Virus record (IMG/VR): IMGVR_UViG_3300042691_019199
Location: 1-24,253 of that record
Source of the DNA: a virus
Direction: 5' to 3' (one strand)
DNA length: 24,253 nucleotides
Positions 4,628 through 24,253 of the stretch are shown piece after piece. The translations under genes and the position numbers were made by a program. Each line of letters starts with the position of its first letter. Positions within the stretch are counted from its first letter, which is position 1. The notes under the pieces were generated by a model. The model had not been told where the DNA came from and searched no databases. It was given only the letters and a program-made list of their open reading frames with translations.

Positions 4628-5116
4628 TCATGCTTCGTTGATGGAGCTCGTCGCCCCGTTGGAGGCCACCAGCGGGAGCCTGGTGGCCGGGATTGGAACG
4701 GTCGAGGGCCACCGATAGCCGAGGACGCGCGCGCGATCGAATTGAGCGAGGCTCACGGCGTTGTTTTGGTTGCCGCCCAGCACCATCAACCGCCCCATCT
4801 CGTCGGTGCCGGCGACGAAGCCCACATGGCCGCCGCCCTTTCGCTCGAAGACGGCGATGCAGCCGGGGATCGGGTCGGGGATGCTGACCCCGAACTCGAG
4901 CCAGCCCCGCGCGCGGTACCAGTACTTCGGCGGGACGAGCCCCTCCTTGCGCATCACGGCGGCGACATAGACCCCGCACCACGGGGTCTCGTCGTCGCGC
5001 CACCACGCCTTGAGCTCGAGGAGCCACCGCGAGATGACCGGCGCCGTCGCCTTGCCCGGGGTTTCCCGCAGGCCAAGGTAGCGCCGCGCGCGGTGCATCC
5101 ATGTGGGCTCGGTCAT
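4628..5116 (-). CDS. Endolysin, TIGR02594 / CHAP-NlpC/P60-like
   Basis: A 162-residue protein with the TIGR02594 signature: a short N-terminal helix region, then TPWCGVYVAAVMRKEG carrying the presumed catalytic Cys47, PGCIAVFERKGGGHVGFV with His97, and VLGGNQNNAV with polar residue Asn116, ending in GYRWP. This Cys-His-Asn arrangement is that of papain-fold peptidoglycan amidases/peptidases. No signal peptide or membrane anchor is visible, so release would depend on the adjacent holin. It overlaps the preceding virion gene by an ATGA. The C-terminal about 25 residues are low in obvious structure. Confidence 0.85.
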   Translation of the reverse strand: MTEPTWMHRARRYLGLRETPGKATAPVISRWLLELKAWWRDDETPWCGVYVAAVMRKEGLVPPKYWYRARGWLEFGVSIPDPIPGCIAVFERKGGGHVGFVAGTDEMGRLMVLGGNQNNAVSLAQFDRARVLGYRWPSTVPIPATRLPLVASNGATSSINEA

Positions 5117-7026
5117 CGCTCCTCCGTGGACAATAGGCCCGGGAGCCGTCCACCGAACTGCACACTCTCAAATCTCTTGAGCTGCCTGGCGGCGTCCTCT
5201 TGGAGCAGCTTGCGATCCTCTGCCGACAGCCGCTGAAGGATGGCGCGCTGCTGCTGCGGGTCGATTTCCGTCAGCATCCGCGCCATGTCCTCACGCACGG
5301 CTGGGTTGAGGCCGCGCAGCCGACCCTGAGCCATGTTGAGGAAGGTCATCAGCCTAGAGGCCGTGTTGCCGCTCACGAACTCGGCGGCCTGCTCCGCGCG
5401 CGCCAGTTGGTCCACGCCGCCGCCAGCCGCCGCCGTGGTTCGCGCGGTGCGCGAGCCGAGGTTCGGGTTGACGTTGCGAGAAAACTCTTGCAGCTGTCGC
5501 TCTGCCTTGATTCGCAGCGCAGCCTGTGCGGCTGCGTCTGGGCTCACGGCGAGGAACTCGAGCAAGTCTCTGTTTTGGCGCGATGATGTGAGGGCGCGCG
5601 CGAGGCTGGCGTCGTCCATCGAGGCCAGTCGGTTGTAGAAGGTATCGCGCGCGGTGTCGCGCACGACGCCGACCTGATCGGGGGTCAGGCCGCGAAGCGC
5701 CGTGGCACGGTCAGACTGCGGCATATTCTGGAACCGCTGGCCGAGCTCAGACAGCTTGATGAGCTCGGAATCCTCCGCGAACCGCGCGCGTGCTGCCCCA
5801 TACTCCGGCACGGCGCTCTTGGTGAGGCCGTCAAGACGATCGAACAGCGCACGGATGCCCGAGGCGTTCACGTCTTGATTGCGGAATGCCTGGTCCTTCT
5901 TGGTGCGAACGGCTCGCATCAGATAGTCGAGGCCCGCCACGGTGGGGTAGGCGTTCTGGATGAGGTTGCCGTCCTTGTCCACCAGGTCTGGGATTTTGAG
6001 ATTCTCTTGCCGCGCCGCGTTGGTCTGCGCCGACTTGTACAGCTTACGCAGGAGCGGATCGCCGGCGATGAGGTTTACGATTTCATCGTCCTGCACATAG
6101 CCGACCGCGCGCGCCTTGCCGTAGAGATCGCTCGCGTTGGCGTTGCGGAGCTTGTTGTACTTCTCGAGGATGTCCTGCGTGAACTGGCGGTTGCCGCCGG
6201 TCATCTCGTTGACGATGTTCATCACGCGGCCGCCGGAGCCGGCGAGCGTTTCCTGAGAGAACTCTCGCACGACATCGCCAGCCGCCCCGCCGCCGATGGC
6301 GGCGCGCTCGGTAGCGCCCTGCCCGGCCTGTCCCATCAGCAAGCCAAGCGGCTGGATCTCGCCGGGGCGCCTCTGGGCGATGTTCTGCAACATCTGCTCC
6401 GATGTAAGCGGACCCTCGCGCATGGCGGCGAGCATTTCCTGGGAAGCGACCCGAGGTTCATCAGGGCGCACGGCGCGCTGGAAGATGTCGCGCGCACCGC
6501 GCGCGCCTGCCATGAGCCCACCAAACGCAGGGCCAGCCACCGCGCCGCCGCCGGCTCCGAAGACGGCCCCTGCGATCCTGCTATCAGGGCCAGCCTCGAG
6601 GCCGCCCTGGACCGCGCCAGTCGTCGCGCCAGCGCCGGCTTGCGTACCGAGCCGCCCCAGCGTGCTTTCCACCGCGCCGAGCTTGCCGAACGGGTTAGGA
6701 GAGAGCAGGGCACCGGCAAACTCTGACGCGCCGTATGTCAACGGGTTGGCGCGGCGCATAGACTCGCGCTCCGCCGCCTGTTCGCGCAGGCTTTGCTCAT
6801 AGGGCATCACGCCAGCCGCGCGCTCAACTGCCGCGATCGCCTCATCCGCTCCACCGTAGGTGAATCCCTGCCCGAAGGCGCGGATACCCGTCTGGAGCTC
6901 CCCAGGCGTCTCTGTCTTCGGCGCTGCGCGCATCTTCTGCTGCCGCACGCGCTCAATGACTTCCGGGCTGGTGCCCTCTGGGAATTCCGCGACGGTGCCG
7001 TCCGGCATTGGTACCTTGATGCTCAT
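5113..7026 (-). CDS. Large putative internal/ejection virion protein
   Basis: A 637-residue protein. The N-terminus (MSIKVPMPDGTVAEFPEGTS then EVIERVRQQKM) resembles a short module found at the start of many phage virion proteins. It is followed by a Gly/Ala-rich segment with weakly hydrophobic glycine-zipper-like stretches (about 95-185, AGAGATTGAVQGG, AVFGAGGGAVAGPAFGG) and a long Arg/Gln/Glu-rich helical C-terminal half. Such Ala/Gly-rich helical proteins between tail-nozzle and lysis genes are the usual position of podoviral ejection proteins (P22 gp7/gp20/gp16, T7 gp14-16). No lytic transglycosylase or other enzyme motif is visible. The role in DNA ejection is inferred from position and composition. 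Confidence 0.65.
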   Translation of the reverse strand: MSIKVPMPDGTVAEFPEGTSPEVIERVRQQKMRAAPKTETPGELQTGIRAFGQGFTYGGADEAIAAVERAAGVMPYEQSLREQAAERESMRRANPLTYGASEFAGALLSPNPFGKLGAVESTLGRLGTQAGAGATTGAVQGGLEAGPDSRIAGAVFGAGGGAVAGPAFGGLMAGARGARDIFQRAVRPDEPRVASQEMLAAMREGPLTSEQMLQNIAQRRPGEIQPLGLLMGQAGQGATERAAIGGGAAGDVVREFSQETLAGSGGRVMNIVNEMTGGNRQFTQDILEKYNKLRNANASDLYGKARAVGYVQDDEIVNLIAGDPLLRKLYKSAQTNAARQENLKIPDLVDKDGNLIQNAYPTVAGLDYLMRAVRTKKDQAFRNQDVNASGIRALFDRLDGLTKSAVPEYGAARARFAEDSELIKLSELGQRFQNMPQSDRATALRGLTPDQVGVVRDTARDTFYNRLASMDDASLARALTSSRQNRDLLEFLAVSPDAAAQAALRIKAERQLQEFSRNVNPNLGSRTARTTAAAGGGVDQLARAEQAAEFVSGNTASRLMTFLNMAQGRLRGLNPAVREDMARMLTEIDPQQQRAILQRLSAEDRKLLQEDAARQLKRFESVQFGGRLPGLLSTEER

Positions 7027-8291
7027 CGCGTCACCTTGTTTCCTTTATCGTCGTACTGCTCGACCACGCCGCCGCTGCGCTCCAAGATGGAACGAATCAT
7101 CTGCGCCTGTACCTCAACCGGATACATCGGGTTTGGGAACTGCCTTTGGCCCGCAGCAAGATCCATGTCACTCATGGTGTTACCTACGGTCTGCATCTGC
7201 GCTATGCCAGATCCTCCGCCTACAGACGGTGCAATCAAGTCAGCGTTCGCTGCCTCCACAACACCCTTCATAAAATCTCCAATAACGGGCGCATTGGCTA
7301 ACGAGCTAGCAAGCCCACCCTGCAAAAGGCGCCCGCCCTTTTGCTTGATTAACTGCTCAATCTCTTGAGGCGACTTCTTGCTAATTTCGGCTACGCTCAT
7401 GCCTGTAATGTTCGCTGCGTATTGCAGCGCAGCGGTTCTAGCTTGGAACGCACCTGACTGCTGTCGCGGTGTCATACCTGCCATCGGCCCTTCAGTCGGT
7501 ATGGCGCCGCCCTTAGTGGTAACAGGGCGCTGCACCACGGTGCCGTCACGACGACGGACGATGGTGCCGGGGGCAAACCCGGCTGCGGCCGTCTCTGCCG
7601 GCGTGAGGAACATTCCACCCGGCGCGCCGGGCGCGCCGCCCCCTGCCGCGCCGCCCGCGCCACCGCCACCACCCGCCGCGCGCGCACCAGCAGCGGCGCC
7701 CTTCATAAAGGTCTGTTCCGTGCCGTCGCTGTAAGAGACGATGACCCTATCCGTGAGATCCACCTTACCAACCTGCACGCGAGGCTTTTCCTCCTTCGGC
7801 GGCCCCGTGTACCGGCCCGTCAGCGGGTACAGCCGAGAGCCGCCAACCGTCACGCCAAGAGTGCTTTCGCTGGCGAGCTTGGCGAGATCCGGCGCCATCG
7901 TGGCGACATCGCGCCCTTCCTGCGTGCTGTAGAGCCGCGCCAGCGCCTCCTGCGGGTCCTGACGGTAGCGGGAAGTCAGCGGCCCACCCTCGCCGCCCGG
8001 GAGGCTCTCAAGCGTCCCTGCGGTGCTACCAAAGAGACGCCCGGCGATGCGAGGCATCTCGGCCTCTGCTGCCGCGGTGCGGCGGGCCGCCTCGGCCTCG
8101 GTGGCCTGCTCCTTGCGGCGCGCGCGCAGACCCTCGAGGCCGCCCAAGAGGCCAGACCCAGACAACATCCCGAGGATGGCCGCCGTGCCGCCCTCGCGGG
8201 CGAGCCGCCGGCGCTGCTCCTCGGTCATGCCTTCCATGTTCTCGCCCAGCAGGCCACCGATGAGGCGCTGGAATCCGGTCATCTCTGCCAT
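7023..8291 (-). CDS. Putative internal virion protein with Gly/Ala-rich linker
   Basis: A 422-residue protein. The upstream-extended frame begins at 8408, but ATG 8291 (MAEMTGFQRLIGGLL) is preferred: it follows the previous stop by one base and has a GGAG upstream. Features are a helical N-terminus with glycine-zipper-like repeats, a central low-complexity linker (about residues 195-225, AAGGGGGAGGAAGGGAPG), and a C-terminal half including GMTPRQQSGAFQARTAALQ. The stretch coding the C-terminal part (roughly 7100-7450) is noticeably less GC-rich than the rest, suggesting a recombined segment. No family recognised; its place between the other probable ejection proteins suggests a virion component. 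It overlaps the next gene by ATGA. Confidence 0.6.
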   Translation of the reverse strand: MAEMTGFQRLIGGLLGENMEGMTEEQRRRLAREGGTAAILGMLSGSGLLGGLEGLRARRKEQATEAEAARRTAAAEAEMPRIAGRLFGSTAGTLESLPGGEGGPLTSRYRQDPQEALARLYSTQEGRDVATMAPDLAKLASESTLGVTVGGSRLYPLTGRYTGPPKEEKPRVQVGKVDLTDRVIVSYSDGTEQTFMKGAAAGARAAGGGGGAGGAAGGGAPGAPGGMFLTPAETAAAGFAPGTIVRRRDGTVVQRPVTTKGGAIPTEGPMAGMTPRQQSGAFQARTAALQYAANITGMSVAEISKKSPQEIEQLIKQKGGRLLQGGLASSLANAPVIGDFMKGVVEAANADLIAPSVGGGSGIAQMQTVGNTMSDMDLAAGQRQFPNPMYPVEVQAQMIRSILERSGGVVEQYDDKGNKVTR

Positions 8292-8292
8292 G

Positions 8293-8565
8293 TCACTCTC
8301 CGAGCAGACCGCCGCGCACGCGACGGCCGCCATACAGGCTGTAAAGGCCGCCATAAATTCTGGCGGGGTCGTACTGCGACGCGCGTCCGGCAAAGCCGCC
8401 GCGCTCAATCTTGGGGGAGAGGGAGCTGCTCAAGTCGACCTCTTCCTCTTCGGGCTTCTTCTTGAGGTTCTTGAGGACGTTCCCGAACGAGAACCCACCA
8501 ACCCCGCCGCCCTTATCGCCGCCGGCCATCATGGCCTGCATGATCGCTTGCATAATCGGTTCCAT
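8293..8565 (-). CDS. Small Met-rich putative virion-associated protein
   Basis: A 90-residue protein starting at ATG 8565, sharing one base with the previous stop (TGATG) and with AAGGAG 8 bases upstream; a GTG one codon earlier is also possible. The N-terminus is rich in Met (MEPIMQAIMQAMMAGG), followed by a Gly/Lys stretch, an acidic patch (KKPEEEEVDL) and a Gly/Tyr/Arg-rich tail (YGGLYSLYGGRRVRGG). It has no enzymatic motif and no recognised family. Its location inside the ejection-protein block suggests a minor virion protein or a chaperone for a neighbour. Confidence 0.55.
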   Translation of the reverse strand: MEPIMQAIMQAMMAGGDKGGGVGGFSFGNVLKNLKKKPEEEEVDLSSSLSPKIERGGFAGRASQYDPARIYGGLYSLYGGRRVRGGLLGE

Positions 8566-10313
8566 CACTTCTTCTCCTTGCCGACCTTGCGGTCGAGCTC
8601 CTTGATGGCCTCGGTCAAGAGGCCGATTAGCTGCGGCGCACCAACCTGCCGCATCCCATCACCGCGGCGCGAAACGGCGCTCGGCATGACCTTCTCGACA
8701 TCCTGCGCCGAGACGCTCATGTCCTCCTCGCCGCCGTTGTCCTCGCCCTCCTCGGAGCCGTACCCGTCCTCCCACTCGAACTCGATGCCCTTCAGCCGGC
8801 GCACCTTGTCGAGCGGGTTCTTGATGGACTTGATGTCGCGCTTCATGTCCTCGTCGGACCCGAAAACCTGGGTCATCATGTTCCAGTAAGACGGGCGCCC
8901 GGTGACGGTGCTGGTGCCCGTCGTATTCATCGGCGACGCCTGCACCGCCCCCTGCCTGATGGCGAGCTGCTGCAACGGGAACTGCTGCCGGCGGAAGTCC
9001 TCCTCGCGCTGCGCGTTCAAGAACTGCTGGTAGAGCTGCTGCTGCTGCGTGCCGAGGCCCATCATCGCCCTGCCCGCCCCGTACCGATTCTCCAGCGCCG
9101 TCTGGCCGTAGCCCGCCAGGTCGCGCCCGGCGCCGAGCCGGAGCTCTGCGCCCTGCACCCCGGCTGCCTGGTTCGCGCGCGCGGCGTCCATCGCGGTGCC
9201 GACGTTGAACTGCTCGGCGGCGGTCCCAAGGCGCTGCGCGTCGAGCTGCGCCCGCTGGTTCGCCTCCTCGGCAGAGAGGCCCATGCGCATATAGTCCTGC
9301 ATCGCCTGCTGGTTCGCCGCCCCGGCGCGCATCCCCTGCTCGACGTTGAACTGCTCGGCGGCAGACCCCAGTCGCTGCGCTTCCTGCATGGCCCTCTGGT
9401 TCTCGAGGTCGGCGCGCATCTGCGCGTCGACGTTCGCGGTCTCGGCCGTGAGCCCAAGCCGCGCCAGCTCCATGTCGCGCTGCTGGTTCGAGATCTGACC
9501 ACGCTGGGCGAGCTCCATCACATTCTGCGCCGCGTTTTGGTTCGAGAGCCGCACCGCCTGCTCGCGGCCGACATCGGCCTCTCTCAGCGCCGCCGCCTCG
9601 CGGAAGCCCCGCGCGCGCTGCTCGGCCACAAAGCGATTGCGCTCGCGCGCGGCCTCGCCCGCGGCGATGCCCTCCTCGATGGCGGCACGAGAGCCACCGA
9701 AGGCACGCGCCGCCGTGGCGCGAGCCGATCGCGTCCCGCGAGCCTGCTCCTCGGCGCGGCTGATGTCCTCGAGCCCCGCCTGGGTGACGGCCGCCTCGTA
9801 GGGGTTCATGTAGCGGCCGAGGTCTTGGTCCAAGAAGCCAGCCGCCTGCGCCGTGGGCGCGGCGCCAGGGGCGCCGATGTCGCGCGCGCCGAAGGTGGTC
9901 CCGACGCGGCCGGCAGAGACGCGGCTGGGGGCAAACTGCGTCCCGACCGCGCCGGCGCTGATACGCTCCGGTCCACGCGCCAAGGCGCCGCCGACATCAC
10001 GCGCGCCGAACTGCGTCCCGACGGCGCCCGCCGAGATGCGCTCGGGCTGGAAGCCGAGCTCACGCTGCGCCGCGCGCGCGGCCTGCTCCACCTCGGGGAC
10101 GAATCCGCCCTCCTGCGCGATACGGCGCGTCATCGCCTCGCCGGACATATAGTCCCGCGTGAAGGGCGCGACCATCATCCCACGATAGGGCTCGTAGGGG
10201 ATCGCCGCGACGTCCTCGGCGAATTGAAGGTTCTGCAAGACCCGGTTATAGATCTGCGGGTCGATCTCGGTCTTCTGGACGTCCTTCTTCTTGGAACTAA
10301 AAATCTTGCTCAC
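8565..10313 (-). CDS. Helical, repeat-containing virion protein with C-terminal S74-like chaperone domain
   Basis: A 582-residue protein with a GTG start overlapping the previous TGA (GTGA). Order of regions: a short basic N-terminus (SKIFSSKKK); three copies of an ISAGAVGTQF-type motif (93-102, 118-127, 132-141); a long Ala/Gln/Glu/Arg-rich predicted helical region containing 47-residue-spaced copies of RLGSAAEQFNV-like sequence; and a C-terminal domain (about 485-582) starting GSDEDMKRDIKSI, with SAQDVEKVMPSAV and LIGLLTEAIKEL. That domain fits peptidase S74, the intramolecular chaperone of phage tailspikes/fibres, with Ser486-Asp487 and Lys491 at the expected cleavage region. S74 usually follows beta-helical fibres; here it follows a helical protein. 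An internal/ejection role is inferred from position; self-cleavage is unproven. Confidence 0.65.
   Translation of the reverse strand: MSKIFSSKKKDVQKTEIDPQIYNRVLQNLQFAEDVAAIPYEPYRGMMVAPFTRDYMSGEAMTRRIAQEGGFVPEVEQAARAAQRELGFQPERISAGAVGTQFGARDVGGALARGPERISAGAVGTQFAPSRVSAGRVGTTFGARDIGAPGAAPTAQAAGFLDQDLGRYMNPYEAAVTQAGLEDISRAEEQARGTRSARATAARAFGGSRAAIEEGIAAGEAARERNRFVAEQRARGFREAAALREADVGREQAVRLSNQNAAQNVMELAQRGQISNQQRDMELARLGLTAETANVDAQMRADLENQRAMQEAQRLGSAAEQFNVEQGMRAGAANQQAMQDYMRMGLSAEEANQRAQLDAQRLGTAAEQFNVGTAMDAARANQAAGVQGAELRLGAGRDLAGYGQTALENRYGAGRAMMGLGTQQQQLYQQFLNAQREEDFRRQQFPLQQLAIRQGAVQASPMNTTGTSTVTGRPSYWNMMTQVFGSDEDMKRDIKSIKNPLDKVRRLKGIEFEWEDGYGSEEGEDNGGEEDMSVSAQDVEKVMPSAVSRRGDGMRQVGAPQLIGLLTEAIKELDRKVGKEKK
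9891..10037 (-). repeat. Three copies of an ISAGAVGTQF motif within the S74-bearing virion protein
   Basis: Coding repeat: ISAGAVGTQF at residues 93-102 and 118-127, and the variant VSAGRVGTTF at 132-141. Flanking FGARDVG and FGARDIG extend the similarity of the first and third copies. The repeats are in frame and partly diverged, suggesting duplication under protein-level constraint. Confidence 0.75.
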
Positions 10314-12710: not shown

Positions 12711-14417
12711 TTATTTGCTCTCCAATGCGGCGAACTTCGCCTCAAGTTGTTCGATACGGGTCATGGCTTCTTGCAGGGCTTTAGTTAGCAGCGGAACCAC
12801 ATTGGCTGCGCCAACGCTTTGATACACCGGGTCGCCGTTCTCGTTTACGGCATCCTTTTCACCCGCTACAGCAATCGGCACAACTTCCTGTAATTCGTGA
12901 GCAACAAAGCCCTCTGACTCAAGCCCGTTTCGCTTCCAGTTCCATTTTACAGGCTTCAATTGCGCCAAACGATCAAGCGCGTTTTCAATCGGTTGAATGT
13001 TTTCTTTTAACCGATAATCCGACGAGGTTCCGTAAGTCGTCGTGCCGCCGCTAAAAGTGATTTCGCCTTGGCGTGTGCCATCGCCGTCGTCAAAAACCAG
13101 CGCATAGTTGGTGCCAGCGGCATTGTCTGCGCCGCATTGAATTGACATTCCATATCGGTTTGCATTGTTTCCGTCATTAACAATTCTAAAAATGTATGCG
13201 TTAGCGGAATCGCCTACAAACTCGTGATACAAACCGGATGAACTAATGTATGCGGCATTTGCTTGCGCTTTGAAATAACCGTCGCTCGTGATGCGGGCGC
13301 TTTCGGTGGCGCTAGTCTGAAAAGTAAGCACAGACCCGTTGATATTCAACTGCTGATACGAACCAGTCAGCGTTGAGTCAACACCGTGAATAGTGGATGC
13401 GCCGCTGCTGAACGTACCGCCGTTGTCAAAGCGGATGCCGTAGGTGCCGCCAGAGATACCAGCAGTGATTCCGTCACCGCTGCGAACTGCTTGGAATCTG
13501 TATGAGGGCGAACTCGTCCCGATGCCGAGGTTGCCGGAGGTGTCGAGGAACATACGCGGCGTATTGTCCGGCGAGAATCGAATTCCTCGCACGCCGGAAG
13601 TCGTACCAATAACAAGCGCGTCGCTGTAGTTGGACTCAATGTAACCGGATCGACCTGCCGCAACGTCGTCTGTAATCGTGATGCGAGTTGCTGCTGCGGT
13701 ATTTGAAACGTGCAACTTGCTTGCAGGCGAACTCGTCCCGATGCCCAACCCCGTCGAGGTGAGGCGCATAAATTCGGCATCGTTATTGTCAACAAATGCC
13801 AAGCCGGGAGTGTTCATAAATTTGATGCGCTGTGGATTACTTCCAGCAACATCACGCAAATACAAAGTAGCGTTTTGACCGGCTACAGTGTTATTTACAA
13901 CAAGACCATTTGCGTTTGCCGACGCAACAACCATTTGCCCACTACCTACCGTAGGGTCTGAACCGTTAACAGCGAGTTGGCTTCCATTAAATACCAGCGC
14001 ACTCCCACTCGTCGCCGCCTTGCTGCCGTTCAAGTACAACACGCCGTTGGCGGTGCCGCCGTTAAGCGTGAGGTTGCCGGAGAGCGTAGCAGCCGCCGCG
14101 CTCACCGTGCCGGTGAGGGTGGGAGATCCGGCGAGCACGTTGTTGCCGGTGCCGGTGTTCGTGACCGAGACCACGTTCTTGCTGGCATCGAGCGCGAGCG
14201 CCGTCGACGCCGTGAGCGCCGACATATTCTGCGTGCCGCCGACCGTCAGCGTCTTGCCGGTGCCTACGTTGAGGCCCACCGAGGTGCCGCTGCCTGCGCC
14301 GGTGAAGATCCCGTCGACGAGATCGAGGTTGGTGTTGATCTTGCCGCCCCAGGTGTCAGCGCTCGCGCCGACTTCCGGCTTGGTGAGGCCCAGGTTGGTG
14401 GTTGTCGTATCAGCCAT
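12711..14417 (-). CDS. Tail fibre / receptor-binding protein with C-terminal S74 chaperone domain
   Basis: A 568-residue protein. The N-terminal attachment part ([37 protein letters not shown]) is a common fibre anchor motif. It is followed by Gly/Thr/Ser/Asn-rich beta-repeats, including two GLGIGTSSP-type elements (SSPASKLHV and SSPSYRFQA), then a distal domain (about 320-460) and an S74 domain (463-568): [36 protein letters not shown] and a terminal coiled coil ([20 protein letters not shown]). S74 domains trimerise the fibre and then self-cleave near the conserved Ser466. GC content falls sharply from about 14000 leftward, so most of the fibre shaft, distal part and S74 domain were probably exchanged while the anchor was kept. 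Confidence 0.85.
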
Positions 14418-17307: not shown

Positions 17308-18288
17308 TCAGGTCGTGGTGAGGTCGGCGGCGAGGCCGTGCGCGGCCTCGGTGTTGACCTTCAACCCGTACTCCACGGTGATCAAGCGCTTCTCGGCGTC
17401 GCCGGTCTTGGCGAGCTCCACCGTCTGGAACGGACGGAGGAAGGCAACGCTCGCGTACTCGGGGTCGAGCACGAAGGCATCACGCTCACGCTGGAAGCGG
17501 TTGGGGACGACCGAGACCGAACCGAAGTCCGAGACGTAGACGTCCGCGGCGCCGATGATGGTCGCCTGACGGTTGCCCGTGACCTCGCGGCGAATCTCCG
17601 CGATGCCGGCAAACTCAGACACGCGGGCCTTGTTCACCGGGCCAACCATCAACAGCTTCGGCGAGCCACCAGAGGCCCAGACCTTCTGGATGACCGTCTT
17701 GAGGATGGCCTCCGTGAAGGTGCGCAGGTTCGCCGCGGTGGCGTCCGTGCGGGTCGCGTTCGGCGAGCTCGTGTAGACCGGATCAGCGCCGCCCGTGCCC
17801 TTGTCGGTGTTGGTCTTGAGGAAGGCCAGCAGCGAGCCCGTCTTGCGCAGCGCGGTCGAAACACCAGCCGAACCAGCCGAGGCGGCCTGGTTGGTGAGCA
17901 TGGTGCTCTCCATGTCGCGCTTGATCTCAGCCGAGCGCTTGGCGAGCTGGTACGCCAGCTCCGAGCGACGGCCGGCCTTGTCGACGGCCTCGAGCGTGCC
18001 CGAGATCAGCACGGTCTTGTTGCTGATCTGCGTGTAGTTGCCCACGCGGGTCGTGGCGGAGGTTGAGTCGAACGACGAAACGTCGTCGCCTTCCACCTGC
18101 GCGTTGGTCGTGGAGGCCGCGGCGAGCGAGTCCGTCTGCCACTCGAAGTAAGTGTTCTTGACGTTCTCGCGGCCGATGTTCGACATGAACGGGGTCTCTT
18201 CCGGCGAGATGTTATAGATAACATTCGAGAGAGACTCACGGATGCCCTTTGCGGCAAACGTATCGAAAGTATTTGCAGTCTGTGACAT
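17308..18288 (-). CDS. Major capsid protein (SU10 / DUF5309-like HK97 fold)
   Basis: A 326-residue protein starting at ATG 18288 with AAGGA upstream. Recognisable segments: the N-terminal SLSNVIYNISPEETPFMSNI, FEWQTDSLAAA, VEGDDVSSFDSTSATTRVGN, NKTVLISGTLEAVDKAGRRS then ELAYQLAKRSAEIKRDMEST, followed by GPVNKARVSEFAGI and the C-terminal VLDPEYASVAFLRPFQTVEL and VEYGLKVNTEAAHGLAADL. These are hallmarks of the SU10 major head protein family, an HK97-like coat used by many podoviruses. The scaffold gene lies immediately upstream and a stem-loop immediately downstream, both typical of a highly expressed coat gene. No protease gene is visible, fitting scaffold-directed rather than delta-domain-directed assembly. 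Confidence 0.9.
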   Translation of the reverse strand: MSQTANTFDTFAAKGIRESLSNVIYNISPEETPFMSNIGRENVKNTYFEWQTDSLAAASTTNAQVEGDDVSSFDSTSATTRVGNYTQISNKTVLISGTLEAVDKAGRRSELAYQLAKRSAEIKRDMESTMLTNQAASAGSAGVSTALRKTGSLLAFLKTNTDKGTGGADPVYTSSPNATRTDATAANLRTFTEAILKTVIQKVWASGGSPKLLMVGPVNKARVSEFAGIAEIRREVTGNRQATIIGAADVYVSDFGSVSVVPNRFQRERDAFVLDPEYASVAFLRPFQTVELAKTGDAEKRLITVEYGLKVNTEAAHGLAADLTTT

Positions 18289-18300
18289 GGAAATGGTCCT

Positions 18301-19266
18301 TTAAATGAATTGCTCAAACACGGCAGCCGCGTCGCGCGTGCTGCCACTCTTGGCGAGCTTAGAAAGAGCGTTCTTGGATGACACGACCTGAGAGGACTGC
18401 GGAGTGCTGGCCGCGCCAGCCTTCATGGGCTTCGCCTTCTGCGTGATGGTCGGGCGAATCTGCGAGCGCTTGCTCATCAGGTCGTCGAACATCATCGCCT
18501 TGCGCAGCGCCAAGACGGCCCGAGCGTCGTAGATGTCCGATATCTCCTCGACAGAAAAGCCGAGTTTATCGGTGGCATATTCGACGATCTTCGCCTTCTC
18601 GGCGCGTGCCTTATCAGCGTCGCGCCACTCGGGCAGCATCTCGATGAGCTTGCCACGCTCGGACTCGAGGGTCTTCTCGGCCTCCGCGCGCTCCTCCAGC
18701 TGCTGCCTCTCCACCAGAGCATTCTTCTGGGACTGAACCCAGGCAGCCTGCTCCTGCCTCGTCCTCGCCACCTCGCGCTGTCTCACCCACTCAACTGGAT
18801 TCTCTTGGTAGAGACGGTCCCAGTCGATCTCGGGCGGTTGCAGCTGCTTGAGGCTCGAGTCGAGTGCCTCTAACGTCTGCGCATACCTCTGCCGCTCTTC
18901 CCGCGCCTGACGAAGCTCCGCGTCGGCCTGTTTTCTGGCCTCTGCAATCGCCTGCGTCTTGCGCGTGTAGTCCGCGGTGCGGGAGTAGCCCTTCAGCAGC
19001 TCATCCAGCGGGACGTCGACTTCTTCCCCGTCAACCTTGACGCGGAATGTCTGGCCCGGCTGGGGCGCCTCGTCGGCATCCTCCTCGCCTTCGGTTACTT
19101 CGCCCTCGGCGTCGGACTCGCCATCCGCCGCCTCGAGCACCTCTTGATCCACACCTTCGGTTTCGAGCTGATCGGTTTCGCCTTCCTCGGCGGCGATCAT
19201 CTGCTCAAACACGCTCTGCGTGGACTGTACGTTTCCCGGGGGTACACCCGTGCCGGTTTCGCTCAT
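18301..19266 (-). CDS. Capsid scaffolding protein
   Basis: A 321-residue protein: a strongly acidic, disordered N-terminal third (about 24-70, many E/D); a short beta motif FRVKVDGEEVDVPLDELLKG followed by YSRTADYTRKTQAIAEARKQ; a long charged coiled-coil region (about 90-225); and a more basic C-terminal part ending GSTRDAAAVFEQFI. This layout, its size and its position directly before the coat gene identify a scaffold that guides procapsid assembly and is lost before or during DNA packaging. The C-terminal basic/helical end is the usual coat-binding element. The Shine-Dalgarno is weak (only AGGG very close to ATG), which may limit expression relative to the coat protein. Confidence 0.85.
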   Translation of the reverse strand: MSETGTGVPPGNVQSTQSVFEQMIAAEEGETDQLETEGVDQEVLEAADGESDAEGEVTEGEEDADEAPQPGQTFRVKVDGEEVDVPLDELLKGYSRTADYTRKTQAIAEARKQADAELRQAREERQRYAQTLEALDSSLKQLQPPEIDWDRLYQENPVEWVRQREVARTRQEQAAWVQSQKNALVERQQLEERAEAEKTLESERGKLIEMLPEWRDADKARAEKAKIVEYATDKLGFSVEEISDIYDARAVLALRKAMMFDDLMSKRSQIRPTITQKAKPMKAGAASTPQSSQVVSSKNALSKLAKSGSTRDAAAVFEQFI

Positions 19267-19292: not shown

Positions 19293-19562
19293 TTACTTCC
19301 TGCCGCTTAGTTTGTCGATGTCCCGCTTCGCCATCGCGCCCGTGTCGACCACGATCCGCAGGTGGCGCTTGATTTCTCCCAGGATGCCGACCGCGAGCCA
19401 CAGCCGCTCGCGCTCCTCTTGGTCGGCCGGCTTGCTCTCGCGCCATGCCTTTAGGTACTCACCCTCCAGCGCCTTGAATGCTTCATCGAGCGCGGGGCTG
19501 TCGAGTAGGGCGCGCGCCTCTGCGCCGCGCCGTTGGTCGGCATAGAGATCGCGCTCAATCAA
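19293..19562 (-). CDS. Small conserved helical phage protein
   Basis: An 89-residue, almost entirely helical charged protein: IERDLYADQRRGAEARALLD, DEAFKALEGEYLKAWRES, EERERLWLAVGILGEIKRHL and DIDKLSGRK. The start is a TTG overlapping the TGA of the preceding small gene (TTGA), with no strong ribosome-binding site, so translation is probably coupled. Similar small proteins are common in phage head-gene clusters between portal and scaffold. No function is known to me; an assembly cofactor or minor capsid component is conceivable. Confidence 0.65.
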   Translation of the reverse strand: MIERDLYADQRRGAEARALLDSPALDEAFKALEGEYLKAWRESKPADQEERERLWLAVGILGEIKRHLRIVVDTGAMAKRDIDKLSGRK

Positions 19563-19738
19563 GCGAGGAGCCCGCCTTTCGGCTTCTTCTTCATCGCGCG
19601 GCTCAAGAGCTTGGTGCCCTTGTCGGCCTTGTTGAACTCCTTGGCAACCTTACCAGGCACGCCGACCTTCTTTGCGAAGGCTGGGTCGTGGGCGGCGGCG
19701 GCCATTAGGCGGGCCTGCTTAGCTGATTTACTGGGCAT
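19559..19738 (-). CDS. Very small basic phage protein (59 aa)
   Basis: Found by reading the minus strand between annotated genes: ATG 19738 with AAGGAG 8 bases upstream, 59 residues, TGA at 19559-19561 overlapping the next start. The protein reads MPSKSAKQARLMAAAAHDPA then FAKKVGVPGKVAKEFNKADK and GTKLLSRAMKKKPKGGLLA. It is highly basic and Lys/Ala-rich. Similar MPSKS..Q..LM..AAH proteins recur in phage genomes; some related small families are annotated as DUFs. Nucleic-acid contact is plausible from charge alone. Confidence 0.7.
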   Translation of the reverse strand: MPSKSAKQARLMAAAAHDPAFAKKVGVPGKVAKEFNKADKGTKLLSRAMKKKPKGGLLA

Positions 19739-19740
19739 CT

Positions 19741-20067
19741 CTATCGCTCCTTCTGGTTCTTGTACCGCTCCAAGAGCCGCCGCCCCTTGGCGACCGCGCT
19801 CGCCTTATCACCACGATGCCCCCACGCCTCGAGGCTCAGCTTGAGGCGCGTCTTGTCGCCCTGCTCGTCGGTGAGGAGCCCGGGCATCGAGCCCATGCGC
19901 GCGAGGAACGATCCCTTACGGCGCAGCTGCTCCGGCGTGGTCGGCGCTCCCTTGACGGGCGCCTTCAGCGTGCCGCCGGTCTCTGCCTTGTACGACGCGC
20001 GGCCCTTCGCGTTCAATCCGCCGCGCGGGTTCTTCCCGGCGGCGCGTTGCCACGCCGGGGTCTTCAC
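19741..20067 (-). CDS. Basic phage protein, DUF6321-like
   Basis: A 108-residue protein with a GTG start overlapping the previous TGA (GTGA). It has the conserved opening PAWQRAAGKNPRGGLNAKGR followed by ASYKAETGGTLKAPVKG, then SFLARMGSMPGLLTDEQGDK and a basic C-terminal helix (ASAVAKGRRLLERYKNQKER). The N-terminal GKNP.GGLN.KGR...Y signature is that of DUF6321-type phage proteins, whose function is unknown. It is rich in Lys, Arg and Gly, and it is one of three consecutive small basic proteins. A DNA- or RNA-associated head role is possible but unproven. Confidence 0.7.
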   Translation of the reverse strand: MKTPAWQRAAGKNPRGGLNAKGRASYKAETGGTLKAPVKGAPTTPEQLRRKGSFLARMGSMPGLLTDEQGDKTRLKLSLEAWGHRGDKASAVAKGRRLLERYKNQKER

Positions 20068-20213
20068 TTGCGCTTCTTGACCGTCTTCGCCGCGGCCTTG
20101 AATGCCTTGGCCGTTGGCGCGCCCTTCGCCCCAGGCTTGCGCATCTTCTCGCCGCTGCCGGCCGCGATGCGCTCACGCTTGGCGTGGATGTTCGAGTAGA
20201 GCCCCTGCTTCAT
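20064..20213 (-). CDS. Very small basic phage protein (49 aa)
   Basis: Found between genes on the minus strand: ATG 20213 with GAGGTGA 6-7 bases upstream (the signal overlaps the end of the preceding low-complexity gene), 49 residues ending in TGA at 20064-20066. Sequence: MKQGLYSNIHAKRERIAAGS then GEKMRKPGAKGAPTAKAFKA and AAKTVKKRK. Similar LY.NIHAKR.RIA.GSGEKMR.PG sequences are a recurring tiny phage family. The pI must be very high, since Lys and Arg make up roughly a third of residues with few acids. Function unknown. Confidence 0.75.
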   Translation of the reverse strand: MKQGLYSNIHAKRERIAAGSGEKMRKPGAKGAPTAKAFKAAAKTVKKRK

Positions 20214-20217
20214 TTCA

Positions 20218-21369
20218 TCACCTCATTTCAAAGCCAAAGTCGTCCACAAACATATCACGGCTTGGCCGATAGAACGGAGACTCAATCTGCGCGGGCACGA
20301 ATGGCATCGGCTCCGGCGCATAGGTCTGCATCGGCGGGATGTAGGGCTGCGGCTCAAAGACGGCTGGCTCGAATGATGGCACGAATGGCGCCATCACCGG
20401 CGGCTCGTAGAAAGCCGGGGCCATCGGAGGGGGCTCGTAGAGCATTGGAGCGGGAGGGGGCGGCGCGTAGAAAGTCGGCGCCATCGGGGGCGGCTCGTAG
20501 AAGGTCGGCGCAGGAGGAGGCGGCTCGTAAAAAGTCGGCGCGGGAGGAGGCGGCGCGTAGAGCATTGGAGCAGGAGGCTCGTAGAATGTCTGGGCCATCG
20601 GAGCCGACTGCACGGGCGTGTCCTGCTGCTGCACCGGCATGATCGAATCAAAACCCTGCGCGGCAGGCGCCATCGGCGCCTCACTCTTGGCCGGCAGGGT
20701 TTGATCAAAAGGGAACGAGAACCCCCCCATGTACGGTTGCGGCGCGAACGGGCTTGGCTGGAACTGCTGCGGTCCCATCTCCACTTGCCCTCCGCCATAA
20801 ACCGGCGACGGCGGCGCGCTGCCGAAGCCGGGCGCCATCTGCGGGGGCTGCGGCTGCGGAGCGGGCTGCGCTTGGGGCGTCCCTTCCGGCTGGAAATAGT
20901 CCTCGAACATCTGACGCAGCTGGCGCCCGCCGCCGCGACGACCGCCGCGACGACCGCCACCAAAGCCGCCGCCATACCCGCCGCCGCCAAACATCGACGT
21001 CGCCGCGAACGGGTTGAAGGCTGGGCCGCCGTAGTATTGCTGCGAGAAGTAATTGCTGAAGGCATCGTTGATGGTCGGCTGGTAGGCCGGCGCGCGCATC
21101 CCGCCGCCGTAACCGCCAAAGCCGCCACCGCCGCCCATGTCATAGCCGCCGAACTGCGTGCCGTAGCCGCCCATTCCGCCGCCGCCGAAGCCGCCGAAGC
21201 CGCCCATGCCGGAGAAGTCGCGGCTCGCGTCAAAGCCGCCGCCGTAGCCGCCCATGCCGCCACCAAAAGGCGACCCATATCCGCCCATTCCGCCGCCGTA
21301 GCCGCCGCCATAGCCTCCCATCATGGGACCTTGGGCAAACTGTCGTTGACCCGAAAATGCGTTACTCAT
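20218..21369 (-). CDS. Low-complexity Gly/Tyr-rich, RGG-box and Pro-repeat protein
   Basis: A 383-residue protein with extreme composition. Residues about 14-95 are a GYGGG/GFGGG-rich tract (MGGYGGGYGGGMGGYG and on). At 100-125 lies a more ordinary aromatic segment (NDAFSNYFSQQYYGGPAFNP). 127-149 returns to GGGGYGGGFGGGRRGGRRGG, containing RGG-like boxes, followed by a short helix (QLRQMFEDYFQ). 161-260 is Pro/Gln-rich. 261-328 is seven tandem decapeptide-type units (MLYAPPPPAP, TFYEPPPPAP and on). The end (RDMFVDDFGFEMR) is acidic-aromatic. It is predicted almost wholly disordered. The start at ATG 21369 lies 7 bases after the previous stop. No known phage family comes to mind; position among head genes suggests a virion or assembly function. 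Confidence 0.8.
   Translation of the reverse strand: MSNAFSGQRQFAQGPMMGGYGGGYGGGMGGYGSPFGGGMGGYGGGFDASRDFSGMGGFGGFGGGGMGGYGTQFGGYDMGGGGGFGGYGGGMRAPAYQPTINDAFSNYFSQQYYGGPAFNPFAATSMFGGGGYGGGFGGGRRGGRRGGGRQLRQMFEDYFQPEGTPQAQPAPQPQPPQMAPGFGSAPPSPVYGGGQVEMGPQQFQPSPFAPQPYMGGFSFPFDQTLPAKSEAPMAPAAQGFDSIMPVQQQDTPVQSAPMAQTFYEPPAPMLYAPPPPAPTFYEPPPPAPTFYEPPPMAPTFYAPPPPAPMLYEPPPMAPAFYEPPVMAPFVPSFEPAVFEPQPYIPPMQTYAPEPMPFVPAQIESPFYRPSRDMFVDDFGFEMR
20386..20589 (-). repeat. 30-bp tandem coding repeats (APxFYEPPP decapeptides)
   Basis: Six full 30-bp units (20386-20565) plus one shorter 24-base unit (to 20589). Each encodes a variant of (T/A)FYEPPPPAP or MLYEPPPMAP. On the plus strand ggctcgtag or ggcgcgtag recurs every 30 bases. 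Units differ mainly at T/A/M-F/L and E/A positions, so copies have diverged under protein-level constraint. Confidence 0.9.
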
Positions 21370-21376
21370 GCGTCAC

Positions 21377-22738
21377 CTATTCCGACAAGTCGTAGAAAGC
21401 CAATGAACCGATGGCAGACCCGGTGCCGCTCAAGATCCTGACGGCGACCGTGTAGACATCACTCGTCCCGGCGATGGTCGCGCCGAGCTGCATATCGAAG
21501 TTATAGAGCAGATCGTTCTGCGCCTGGGCCGCGGACTGGTTGCTTGATGTCGTGTACTCGTTCAAGACGATATCTCCGCCAGACATGGCGGTCGCGGTCA
21601 CATCAAAGTCCACGCTCGCAAAGGTCGTAGTGTCGTAGGACGCGCCGGTGAGCGTCGCGTTCCTGACCAGCGCTATCTCGTACTCGCCGTTTCCAATTGG
21701 AAGCACGCGCACCTGCTTTGGCAAGATGACCGCGCCGAGCGAGTCAGACGCGAGCCGGATTGACACCAGCGGAACGAACGATGTCCCGATTCCGGTCAGC
21801 GTCGTGGTCCTTCGGGCCACGCGCTCGACGGAGGTCTGCTCATAGCCTCCCTCGGACAGCACCGTCGAGCAGATCTGCTTCATGCTCGAGCTGCTCGCGG
21901 TCGCGGCCGTGTTCTCGATCTCGATGCGCAGCGGAAGCGTCGCGGTCTGCATATAGACCGACGTCACCTCGTTGGCGTTGTCGAAGGTGTGGGCCGTGAT
22001 GTACTGGCCGTCGATAACGAACCCGACGCGCACCGACCCGACCCCAAGCCACTCAAAGTCCGCGAAAAGTATCTGTGCCTTTGTGGTGTCGAGCGTGATG
22101 CCGCTCGCGCCGCTCCCGTCCAACGGGTCGCCGTTCCATGAAGACTGGACCACCTTTCGGGTGTCGTCGACAGATCCGCCTGTGTAGGTGCGGATGATGA
22201 ACGAGAGCTCCGTCCCGTTGCGCTGCAAAAAGAGCCCGTTGTTTGTGTCGAAGTATCCCACGCGCTGGCGCAGGTTCGCCTTTGCGGCGGCCATCACGAA
22301 CGTCGACAAAAACGACAGGCTCTTTCCAGGCTGGTACGGGAAGTACCGCTTAGTCTGGCGCACCACCTTGTCGCCGGAGGCCGTCGTCACGGCCAGGCTC
22401 ACGGCCGACTCGTTTGGCAAAAAGGTAGAGGTGCCCGAGCCAGTCAGCGATGTATCGAAGGCAGGGTCCGCCGCGTACCTGTTCTGGCTGTCAAAGAGCG
22501 TGAACGGCTGCGAGACACGCAGCCGCCCGAAAGCATCAAAGTTGTTCTTTGCTAGCAAGTTGAGGTCCGTCAGCGTGTTGATGAACTTGACGATCTCGAG
22601 CTGGTTCGACGCCAACAGGCTCAGGTACAGCCTGAGCTGGTTGTTCGCCTGGTTGAAATACTGGGGGAAGTAGGCCGCAGGGGCGACATTAGGATTCGGC
22701 GGCTGCGGAACAAATACCCCCTCTAGCGGCTCCGACAT
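21377..22738 (-). CDS. Putative virion structural protein, beta-rich
   Basis: The start is ATG 22738 (MSEPLEGVFVPQPPNPN), five bases after the portal stop codon; the frame extends 16 codons further but into the portal gene. It has 453 residues: a helical N-terminus (NQANNQLRLYLSLLASNQLE), then FDAFGRLRVSQPFTLFDSQN and long beta-rich regions with GKSLSFLSTF, RVGYFDTNNGLF, QSSWNGDPLDGSG, DFEWLGVGSVRVGFVIDGQ and LPLRIEIENTA. This FGRLRVS...WN.D.LDG...WLG.G.VR.GF pattern is a phage family seen near head or fibre genes, of unproven function. A jelly-roll-like decoration or fibre role is inferred. No enzymatic motif is seen. Confidence 0.7.
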   Translation of the reverse strand: MSEPLEGVFVPQPPNPNVAPAAYFPQYFNQANNQLRLYLSLLASNQLEIVKFINTLTDLNLLAKNNFDAFGRLRVSQPFTLFDSQNRYAADPAFDTSLTGSGTSTFLPNESAVSLAVTTASGDKVVRQTKRYFPYQPGKSLSFLSTFVMAAAKANLRQRVGYFDTNNGLFLQRNGTELSFIIRTYTGGSVDDTRKVVQSSWNGDPLDGSGASGITLDTTKAQILFADFEWLGVGSVRVGFVIDGQYITAHTFDNANEVTSVYMQTATLPLRIEIENTAATASSSSMKQICSTVLSEGGYEQTSVERVARRTTTLTGIGTSFVPLVSIRLASDSLGAVILPKQVRVLPIGNGEYEIALVRNATLTGASYDTTTFASVDFDVTATAMSGGDIVLNEYTTSSNQSAAQAQNDLLYNFDMQLGATIAGTSDVYTVAVRILSGTGSAIGSLAFYDLSE

Positions 22739-22742
22739 GGCA

Positions 22743-24253
22743 TCACACGGCCATCGGACCCGGCCCCATCTGCGGCGCGGGACCAATCTCAGGGATTACC
22801 GGCTGCTGCACCGACGGCGACGCCACGCGCGAACGGTCCGCCATCTGCCGGATCGCGTCCATGTCGAGTTGGGTGCCGTACTTCAGCTGCACCTCGTAGG
22901 CGCGCAGCATGAGCTCCGACTCCTGCTTGTCGCGCGCGCGGTCATCCTCGAGCAGCATCTGCTGGCGCTTGAGCTCGAGCTCCGCTTGGCTGTTCTGGAT
23001 GTCCGCCATAATCTTCTGCCGCTCAACCTCGGCAAGAATCTGCGCCGGGTCAGGCGGCGGGGGCGGCGGGGGCGGCTGCGGGGGCATCATGGACGGGTTC
23101 AAGAAGAACTCGTCGGGGTTCTTGAAGCCCGAAACCTCGGCCAACCGCGCCAGCGTGTTCCGGTACTGCTGCACCGACACGAGCGGGTTCTGCGGCCCCA
23201 TCTGCTGCAAGACCATTTCCTGCTTCTGGGCGATGGCGTTGAGCACCGCGATCTTCTGCTCCTCGGTGCCGCCGCCGAGCGCGACGTCAATGTCGACGTC
23301 CATGTTCGCGTTCCACGAGCGCGGGTCAATCGGCACCCATTGATTGCGAAGGCGCACCACCCGCGCTCGGTCTTGGTTCTCCACGACCAGCTTGAGAATA
23401 CCCTTGAACAGGGCGCGCATCCCGGTTTCAGCGAACACACGGGCGATCAGCTCAAGATGCTGCTGCGCTGCGCTTACGGTCGCGGCGACCGCCGCGCGGG
23501 TGGTGCTCTGTAGTGCGCCGGCATCGAGGCCCATGGCAGCCTTCGACATACCCGTGCGCGTCTCGCGCACGTTGTCGAGGTACTCGAGCATCGGGAAGGC
23601 GGCTTGGCCGACGAACGGCACGGAGAAGGCCTGGACCGCGCCGGGCTGGCGCATACGGATGACGCCGCCAACCTCGGTGTTCAGCACGTCGTCCATGTTG
23701 GCCTGCCCCTCGACCACGCCCACCCGGGGGTGGATGGCCAGAGAGAGCGAGTCCATCATGTTGCGCATCACCGCGGACTTAATCCGCTGGAGGTCGGCCG
23801 TCATGTCGAAGATGGACAGGCCGATGAGCGCGTGCGGCTCGGGGTCAGGGCAGAAGGTCGCAAACGGCTTGTGCGAGCATGGCTCGTTCATCACGAGCTT
23901 GTAGCCGGGGCCGATGGTGCAGACCTTGCGCAACTCCGCGATGCCGTCGCGGTCGTAGTCGACGCGCACATACGCCTCGACGTAGAGCACGCGCTTGTCG
24001 TCCTGCGTGCCGCCCGGGCCATACGCCTCGGCGTACGGGTTGCGGGCGATGTATTCGTCGTTGGTGTCGAGCTCGAAGGCGCCCATCTGAGAGCGCACCT
24101 CTTCCTCGTCGTAGCCGAGCGCTACAAGATCCGAGACCCGCATCATGCGCCGGTGCGCGACCAGGGTCGCATCCTCCACCGAGCGCGCGCGGCGGTCGAT
24201 GAGGAACTCCTCGGGCGGGACGGCCTCGACGACCACGCGGCCGTCGCGGTACT
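22743..24253 (-). CDS. Portal protein (5' end cut by window edge)
   Basis: About 502 residues are visible; the frame is open past the right edge, so the N-terminus is missing. Signature segments: VPPEEFLIDRRARSVEDATL, CTIGPGYKLVMNEPCSHKPF, CPDPEPHALIGLSIFDMTAD then LQRIKSAVMRNMMDSLSLAI, GGVIRMRQPGAVQAFSVPF, LEYLDNVRETRTGMSKAAMG and a long C-terminal helix region preceded by a poly-Pro stretch (PPQPPPPPPPPDPAQ). These are typical of P22-like portal proteins of podoviruses, the dodecameric channel through which DNA enters and leaves the head. The C-terminal charged barrel-like helix (ELKRQQMLLEDDRARDKQE) and a Pro/Gly/Met tail follow. The terminase is presumably further right, outside the window. 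Confidence 0.85.
   Translation of the reverse strand, partial: YRDGRVVVEAVPPEEFLIDRRARSVEDATLVAHRRMMRVSDLVALGYDEEEVRSQMGAFELDTNDEYIARNPYAEAYGPGGTQDDKRVLYVEAYVRVDYDRDGIAELRKVCTIGPGYKLVMNEPCSHKPFATFCPDPEPHALIGLSIFDMTADLQRIKSAVMRNMMDSLSLAIHPRVGVVEGQANMDDVLNTEVGGVIRMRQPGAVQAFSVPFVGQAAFPMLEYLDNVRETRTGMSKAAMGLDAGALQSTTRAAVAATVSAAQQHLELIARVFAETGMRALFKGILKLVVENQDRARVVRLRNQWVPIDPRSWNANMDVDIDVALGGGTEEQKIAVLNAIAQKQEMVLQQMGPQNPLVSVQQYRNTLARLAEVSGFKNPDEFFLNPSMMPPQPPPPPPPPDPAQILAEVERQKIMADIQNSQAELELKRQQMLLEDDRARDKQESELMLRAYEVQLKYGTQLDMDAIRQMADRSRVASPSVQQPVIPEIGPAPQMGPGPMAV

Follow-up and report, generated by a model that had tools for sequence, protein, structure and literature searches.

A conserved low-complexity protein family encoded in the head module of an SU10/LUZ24-type podovirus lineage

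A 383-residue low-complexity protein, here named MID, is encoded on the minus strand at positions 20218–21369 of the window, the whole stretch of 24,253 bases from a viral record that was analysed. MID belongs to a conserved family, with a constant gene position in the head module, selection acting on a short core, a characteristic composition, no predicted fold and a labile C-terminal arm. We favour, tentatively, the interpretation that MID is a disordered protein produced late, with a part in assembly or in the virion, which would dock through its core, make multivalent contacts through its Gly-aromatic and Arg-rich segments and carry a spare Pro-rich arm. This interpretation has nearly, if not quite, an even chance of being correct; docking, multivalent contacts and a place in the virion are its conjectural parts.

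Gene context

Profile matches in the window identified, along the minus strand, the genes for a portal protein (22743–24236, cut by the contig end; SU10_portal, PF23899, 4.9e-145), a virion structural protein (21377–22738; PHROG 1645, 1.3e-108), a head scaffolding protein (18301–19266; PHROG 3927, 9.2e-61) and the major capsid protein (MCP, 17308–18288; SU10_MCP, PF17236, 7.1e-99). An SU10-type portal and MCP with a scaffold gene between them characterize the SU10/LUZ24-type head module, and the window has this arrangement. The ATG of MID, at 21369, lies 7 nt past the stop codon of the structural gene, and its own stop codon is at 20218. Three small basic proteins are encoded downstream, of 49 aa (20064–20213; PHROG 16028, net charge +13), 108 aa (19741–20067; DUF6321, +16) and 59 aa (19559–19738; +12, resembling virion structural proteins of PHROG at their N-terminus), all on the minus strand, and an 89-aa protein separates the last of these from the scaffold. 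MID had been placed between a structural gene and small basic proteins in the head block, and the matches to PHROG 1645 upstream and to the basic proteins downstream agree with that placement. The window is apparently a fragment, since identical loci occur in a 36.4-kb record. In public phage records its MCP was matched best by Sinorhizobium phage phiM5 and by uncultured genomes that came from a single spring.

The neighbouring genes have features of their own. The three small basic proteins (19559–20213, minus strand) are Lys-rich; PHROG 11180 joins the 49-aa and DUF6321 types in one profile, and the 59-aa type corresponds to the N-terminus of virion structural proteins in PHROG 22033 and 25121. 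The upstream structural protein is one protein here and is represented by separate 61-aa and 119-aa proteins in other genomes (for example, locus L013, 3926–4452). Genes beside relatives of PHROG 1645 in DSL-LC04, HMO-2011 and S-RIM12 were ordinary, with no low-complexity protein among those translated. Relatives of the DUF6321 protein, in MEP402 and EXVC031P, are located near the terminase or amid unnamed genes.

Elsewhere in the window, a 91-aa protein (8293–8568, minus strand) is a second small low-complexity protein, with 20% Gly and a Gly/Tyr/Arg-rich end, YGGLYSLYGGRRVRGG; it had no match in Pfam. Two proteins, at 8565–10313 and 12711–14417 (minus strand), matched tail-fibre or Peptidase_S74 chaperone domains at their C-terminal ends. 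The middle of the first is repetitive and rich in Ala, and its gene is situated amid ejection-type candidates, seemingly an unusual site for an S74 chaperone. On the plus strand, at 27–1031 and 466–918, two open reading frames overlap in different frames, one for an HNH endonuclease (PF01844, 1.4e-05) and one that matches C5 cytosine methylase over a short segment (PF00145, residues 112–143). A motif in the methylase frame, ALGNSMAVP, was recognized by eye about 170 residues further on. It is as if the HNH gene had been inserted within the methylase, with the methylase frame still open.

Composition and repeats

MID begins with the motif MSNAFSGQRQ (residues 1–10; 21340–21369), in which M1, S2, G7, Q8 and Q10 are invariant across a 32-sequence alignment. 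A Gly-aromatic tract follows (residues 17–95; 21085–21321; 47% Gly in MID). Twelve overlapping G[YF]G triplets were counted in the protein (GYG 7, GFG 5), and the Gly/Tyr/Phe tracts noted earlier are clearly present. Next come the conserved core, QPTINDAFSNYFSQQYYGGPAFNPFAATS (residues 97–125, 29 aa; 20995–21081), and an Arg patch, GGGRRGGRRGGGRQLR (residues 137–152; 20914–20961), the positive patch common to the members checked. The preliminary description had recognized an Arg-Gly box at residues 137–149; such a sequence, GGGRRGGRRGGGR, is indeed found there, but literal RGG triplets are limited to two. The C-terminal tail, SPFYRPSRDMFVDDFGFEMR (residues 364–383; 20221–20280), is shared in part by relatives. 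Outside the core, the protein contains 4–10% Gln and 0–1% Asn.

The Pro-Tyr decapeptide array spans residues 258–327 (20389–20598) and comprises seven Y[EA]PP units, with Tyr at positions 263, 271, 281, 291, 301, 311 and 321. The earlier count of seven APxFYEPPP repeats was correct as to number, but the units are imperfect, following AP[TMA][FL]Y[EA]PPP, and copy 1 reads AQTFYEPP. Tandem Repeats Finder reported a 30-bp array of 5.4 copies (score 158) and a 60-bp unit (score 232). The best repeat periodicity was 10, with a 90% match that exceeded all 30 shuffles of the segment (maximum 50%). Low-complexity sequence accounted for 29% of the 12-mers in MID, the highest share among the window proteins checked.

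Family extent and conservation

Scanning viral contigs with an alignment of the core recovered 71 loci. With earlier loci added, the family amounts to 55 distinct proteins of 120–508 aa, a few of them cut by contig ends, from about 75 viral contigs. In nearly all loci the MID gene immediately follows the gene for the structural protein, or for the 119-aa protein that replaces it, and precedes the one for the DUF6321 protein; in L013 it directly follows the portal gene instead. The motifs of the 49-aa and DUF6321 proteins were found downstream in 39 and 43 of 45 members, respectively. MID was single-copy in each of nine records of 35.6–37.2 kb. Among loci that cover the stretch from portal to scaffold, it was present in all eight close relatives and in none of 41 more distant ones (profile search in all frames, 173 loci), for which capsid protein identity was about 65–72%; nor were comparable Gly/aromatic proteins found in the distant loci. 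These distant relatives have portal, scaffold and capsid proteins of the families found here and no MID, so the group as a whole does not depend on MID as a core assembly factor. Three more distant loci (L064, L068 and L072) encode a different, partly Gly-rich protein of 495–735 aa between portal and scaffold.

Conserved across the family are the N-terminal MSNAFxGQxQ, the Gly-aromatic tract, the core and the Arg patch with its near-absence of Lys. Residues 96–125, which had been singled out as non-repetitive, correspond to the family core, and the gene is conserved at the locus. The pooled N-terminal segment of the family contains 35% Gly, 10% Tyr, 8% Phe and 0% Lys. An Arg patch lies no more than 60 aa past the core in 51/51 members checked, with a net charge of +3 to +7, and in 49 of these it is at least as strong as any other positive patch in the protein. 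The 120-aa member stops right past the Arg patch, keeping the N-terminal, core and Arg segments, and the genes for the 49-aa and DUF6321 proteins come after it as usual.

The preference for Arg over Lys, like the Gly-aromatic composition, was family-wide. The ratio K/(K + R) was 6.5% for the MID family, compared with 36% for the portal, 37% for the structural protein, 43% for the scaffold, 48% for the MCP and 53% for the DUF6321 protein. MID fell below its own pooled portal, scaffold and MCP in 58/58 loci, and Lys remained scarce at loci with 55–58% GC. The avoidance of Lys is not explained by base composition. For the window MID alone, the K/R test was not significant (p = 0.20, with a background including one wrong-frame row); evidence for the bias comes from comparing the whole family.

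The family-wide Gly-aromatic tract, the Arg patch, Lys avoidance beyond base composition and the three co-encoded Lys-rich basic proteins could all be taken to indicate a condensate or nucleoprotein organizer. By analogy with FUS and hnRNPs, aromatic and Arg residues would be the stickers and DNA or RNA would bind to the Arg patch, so that the genome or assembly intermediates become concentrated inside infected cells. We consider this unlikely. MID contains just 12 Arg residues, six of them in one short patch, and is acidic as a whole, with a net charge of −12 (family median −2). It has no folded RNA-binding domain (RRM or zinc finger), no Pfam domain and no predicted globular fold, and phase separation does not follow from composition alone. 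That a phage disordered protein with RGG and Gly-aromatic sequence would form eukaryote-like condensates, organizing capsid assembly or genome packaging with Lys-rich co-encoded partners, seems to us quite improbable.

Selection on the core

The pN/pS ratio was determined from 1,485 sequence pairs over the 29-residue core. The annotated frame gave 0.24, the lowest of all frames, while the other sense frames gave 1.58 and 1.66, and the antisense frames 1.36, 0.37 and 1.69. The antisense frame at 0.37 shares its third codon positions with the true frame and so inherits part of the signal. Variability within the core was 0.29 at third codon positions versus 0.11 and 0.08 at the others, and pN/pS for the N-terminal 14 codons was 0.36. 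Judged from these sequence comparisons, the core is under purifying selection. Core selection, the fixed position and the common start motif, taken together, speak far more for a genuine protein-coding gene than for any other reading.

Low complexity is strong in this region and open frames overlap on both strands, as might befit a chance open frame in GC-rich repeats with no functional gene. Purifying selection on the core, and a position and start motif conserved across 55 distinct sequences, make such an origin so improbable as to be negligible, and the chance-frame reading was already refuted by conservation and pN/pS. The preliminary description had allowed that homologues might show the frame not to be conserved; the outcome was the opposite, a gene conserved and selected in the head module.

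The variable C-terminal arm

The preliminary description stressed the combination of Gly-aromatic and Pro-Tyr sequence in one protein. As a defining trait of the family this combination was not supported. The decapeptide array occurs in this genome only, with identical copies at L082 and L083, and other members have different units (13-residue PPAPxYxEPxxY in 13, VY[IAST]PP in 3 and QPQV in 5) or, in 33 of the 55 and by the patterns used, no array at all. Conserved Pro-Tyr repeats of the extensin type do not, therefore, form the body of the family. The decapeptide array is missing even from L084 and L085, whose upstream structural proteins are about 97% identical. Throughout the family the C-terminal arm is Pro-rich, and variable in length and sequence. 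The best reading of these sequences is that the Pro-rich arm would be dispensable, and the Pro-Tyr repeats an incidental add-on of this genome. The body of the structural protein hardly differs between genomes whose low-complexity proteins are very unlike one another, which suggests recombinational exchange.

The quick change in arm length and repeat unit is also a behaviour of surface-exposed regions. MID might accordingly be part of a virion surface appendage or a flexible tether, its Pro-rich arm and Gly tract holding or extending the neighbouring, possibly lectin-like structural protein outside the head or tail. MID nearly always adjoins PHROG 1645 or its replacement, and the flexible Gly-rich linkers of filamentous phage pIII provide a precedent (PMC10175506). 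The model of the neighbour (21377–22738) matched lectin-like β-sandwich folds (galectin/laminin-G) and phage tailspike folds; however, the model is poor (pLDDT 51, pTM 0.37) and the TM-scores are low. Owing to this low confidence, it served only as a hint for placing MID. No trimerization element was seen in MID, contact is not implied by adjacency, and overall a tethering role does not appear likely.

Predicted structure and database searches

AlphaFold2 modelling of MID with 32 sequences produced no overall fold (mean pLDDT 53, pTM 0.19). A 13-residue helix was predicted in the core at residues 100–112, followed by PAFNPFAATS, and residues 270–330, in the region of the Pro-Tyr array, adopted a non-helical structure with moderate confidence. 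No strands were predicted. The amphipathicity of the core helix was not significantly above that of shuffled sequence. By charge-hydropathy, a measure ill-suited to Gly/aromatic-rich sequence, the whole protein fell slightly on the ordered side (+0.07), with negative values around residues 101–210 only. The disorder prediction proposed at the outset was thus borne out in part: AlphaFold2 found no fold bar the core helix, but charge-hydropathy did not place MID clearly on the disordered side. The AlphaFold2 result is consistent with, and not proof of, an intrinsically disordered protein. An ordered known fold such as a tail fibre, which would have spoken against the preliminary description, was not predicted, and there was no match to a fibre or tailspike family.

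Searches of Pfam and PHROG with the window MID gave no match, and 11 members searched in the same way had none in common. Solitary matches, each to one member, were to PHROG 4590 (0.22), DUF4113 (4.5e-05) and DUF7742 (0.006). Nothing meaningful was found by tblastn in 50,697 phage records, using the whole of MID or a 40-aa core; the core was searched alone because the low-complexity filter of this search may hide distant relatives. The core profile gave weak, chance-level matches only among PDB sequences. A limited search of open-access literature text found no description of such a family. The MID family is new to the libraries searched and previously unnamed.

A possible role in the head or particle

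Under the favoured interpretation, MID would be a late product of this podovirus lineage, made alongside its portal, scaffold and capsid proteins. The 29-residue core and the N-terminal MSNAFxGQxQ would most likely serve to dock MID onto a component of the head, a vertex or an appendage, and the Gly-Tyr/Phe tract and Arg patch may make many weak contacts with MID itself, with DNA or with acidic partners. The protein would then act as a multivalent linker, either in the particle or while the head is being assembled. The C-terminal part, rich in Pro and including the Pro-Tyr decapeptides, would form a dispensable arm of variable length.

The small basic proteins raise another prospect, that MID is an internal or ejected virion protein working with them on packaged DNA. 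Lys-rich 49-aa and DUF6321 proteins are encoded downstream in most members, and the 59-aa protein is similar to the N-terminal part of proteins with a virion structural annotation. Ejection-type candidates lie elsewhere, however, at 5113–10313, and the charge of MID is mostly negative; we regard an internal role as very unlikely.

Similarity searches mask or disregard low-complexity sequence, which makes disordered proteins of phages difficult to detect. The short conserved core anchors MID and renders recognizable an entire family, so far without annotation, within a single podovirus lineage. The strong conserved bias towards Arg over Lys and towards aromatic residues offers a clean case in which to ask if low-complexity proteins of the sticker type have a role in capsid assembly in bacteria. 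The Pro-rich arm turns over fast, which marks it as a part that could be omitted from such tests.

Comparison with known systems

Eukaryotic low-complexity regions of the FUS/hnRNP type contain Gly-aromatic repeats and RGG boxes, with aromatic and Arg residues acting as stickers. MID likewise has a Gly-aromatic low-complexity region with RGG motifs, an Arg-Gly patch and Arg over Lys, a likeness known from sequence alone. It differs in having few Arg residues outside the patch, an acidic character overall and its own conserved 29-aa core, and no homology to FUS or hnRNPs was detected. Plant extensins and other Pro-Tyr repeat proteins are built of short Pro-Tyr repeats. Their resemblance to MID is compositional only; the MID unit is restricted to a single genome and can be replaced in relatives.

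Among phage proteins, a survey of predicted prion-like domains used PLAAC, which relies on Asn/Gln bias (PMC5694896). Those proteins share with MID a compositional bias, though MID is rich in Gly, Pro and aromatic residues and has little Asn outside the core. In filamentous phage pIII, flexible Gly-rich virion linkers tether domains (PMC10175506). Both these linkers and MID are Gly-rich, but MID tethers no folded domains internally and the two are not homologous.

The genomic setting parallels the head module of SU10/LUZ24-type podoviruses, in which the portal, scaffold and MCP families and their order are the same as here. In phiM5, ctjtQ328, ctyzp037 and the distant relatives, the portal gene is followed almost directly by those for the scaffold and MCP; in the window, by contrast, the structural gene, MID and the DUF6321 gene are inserted after the portal gene.
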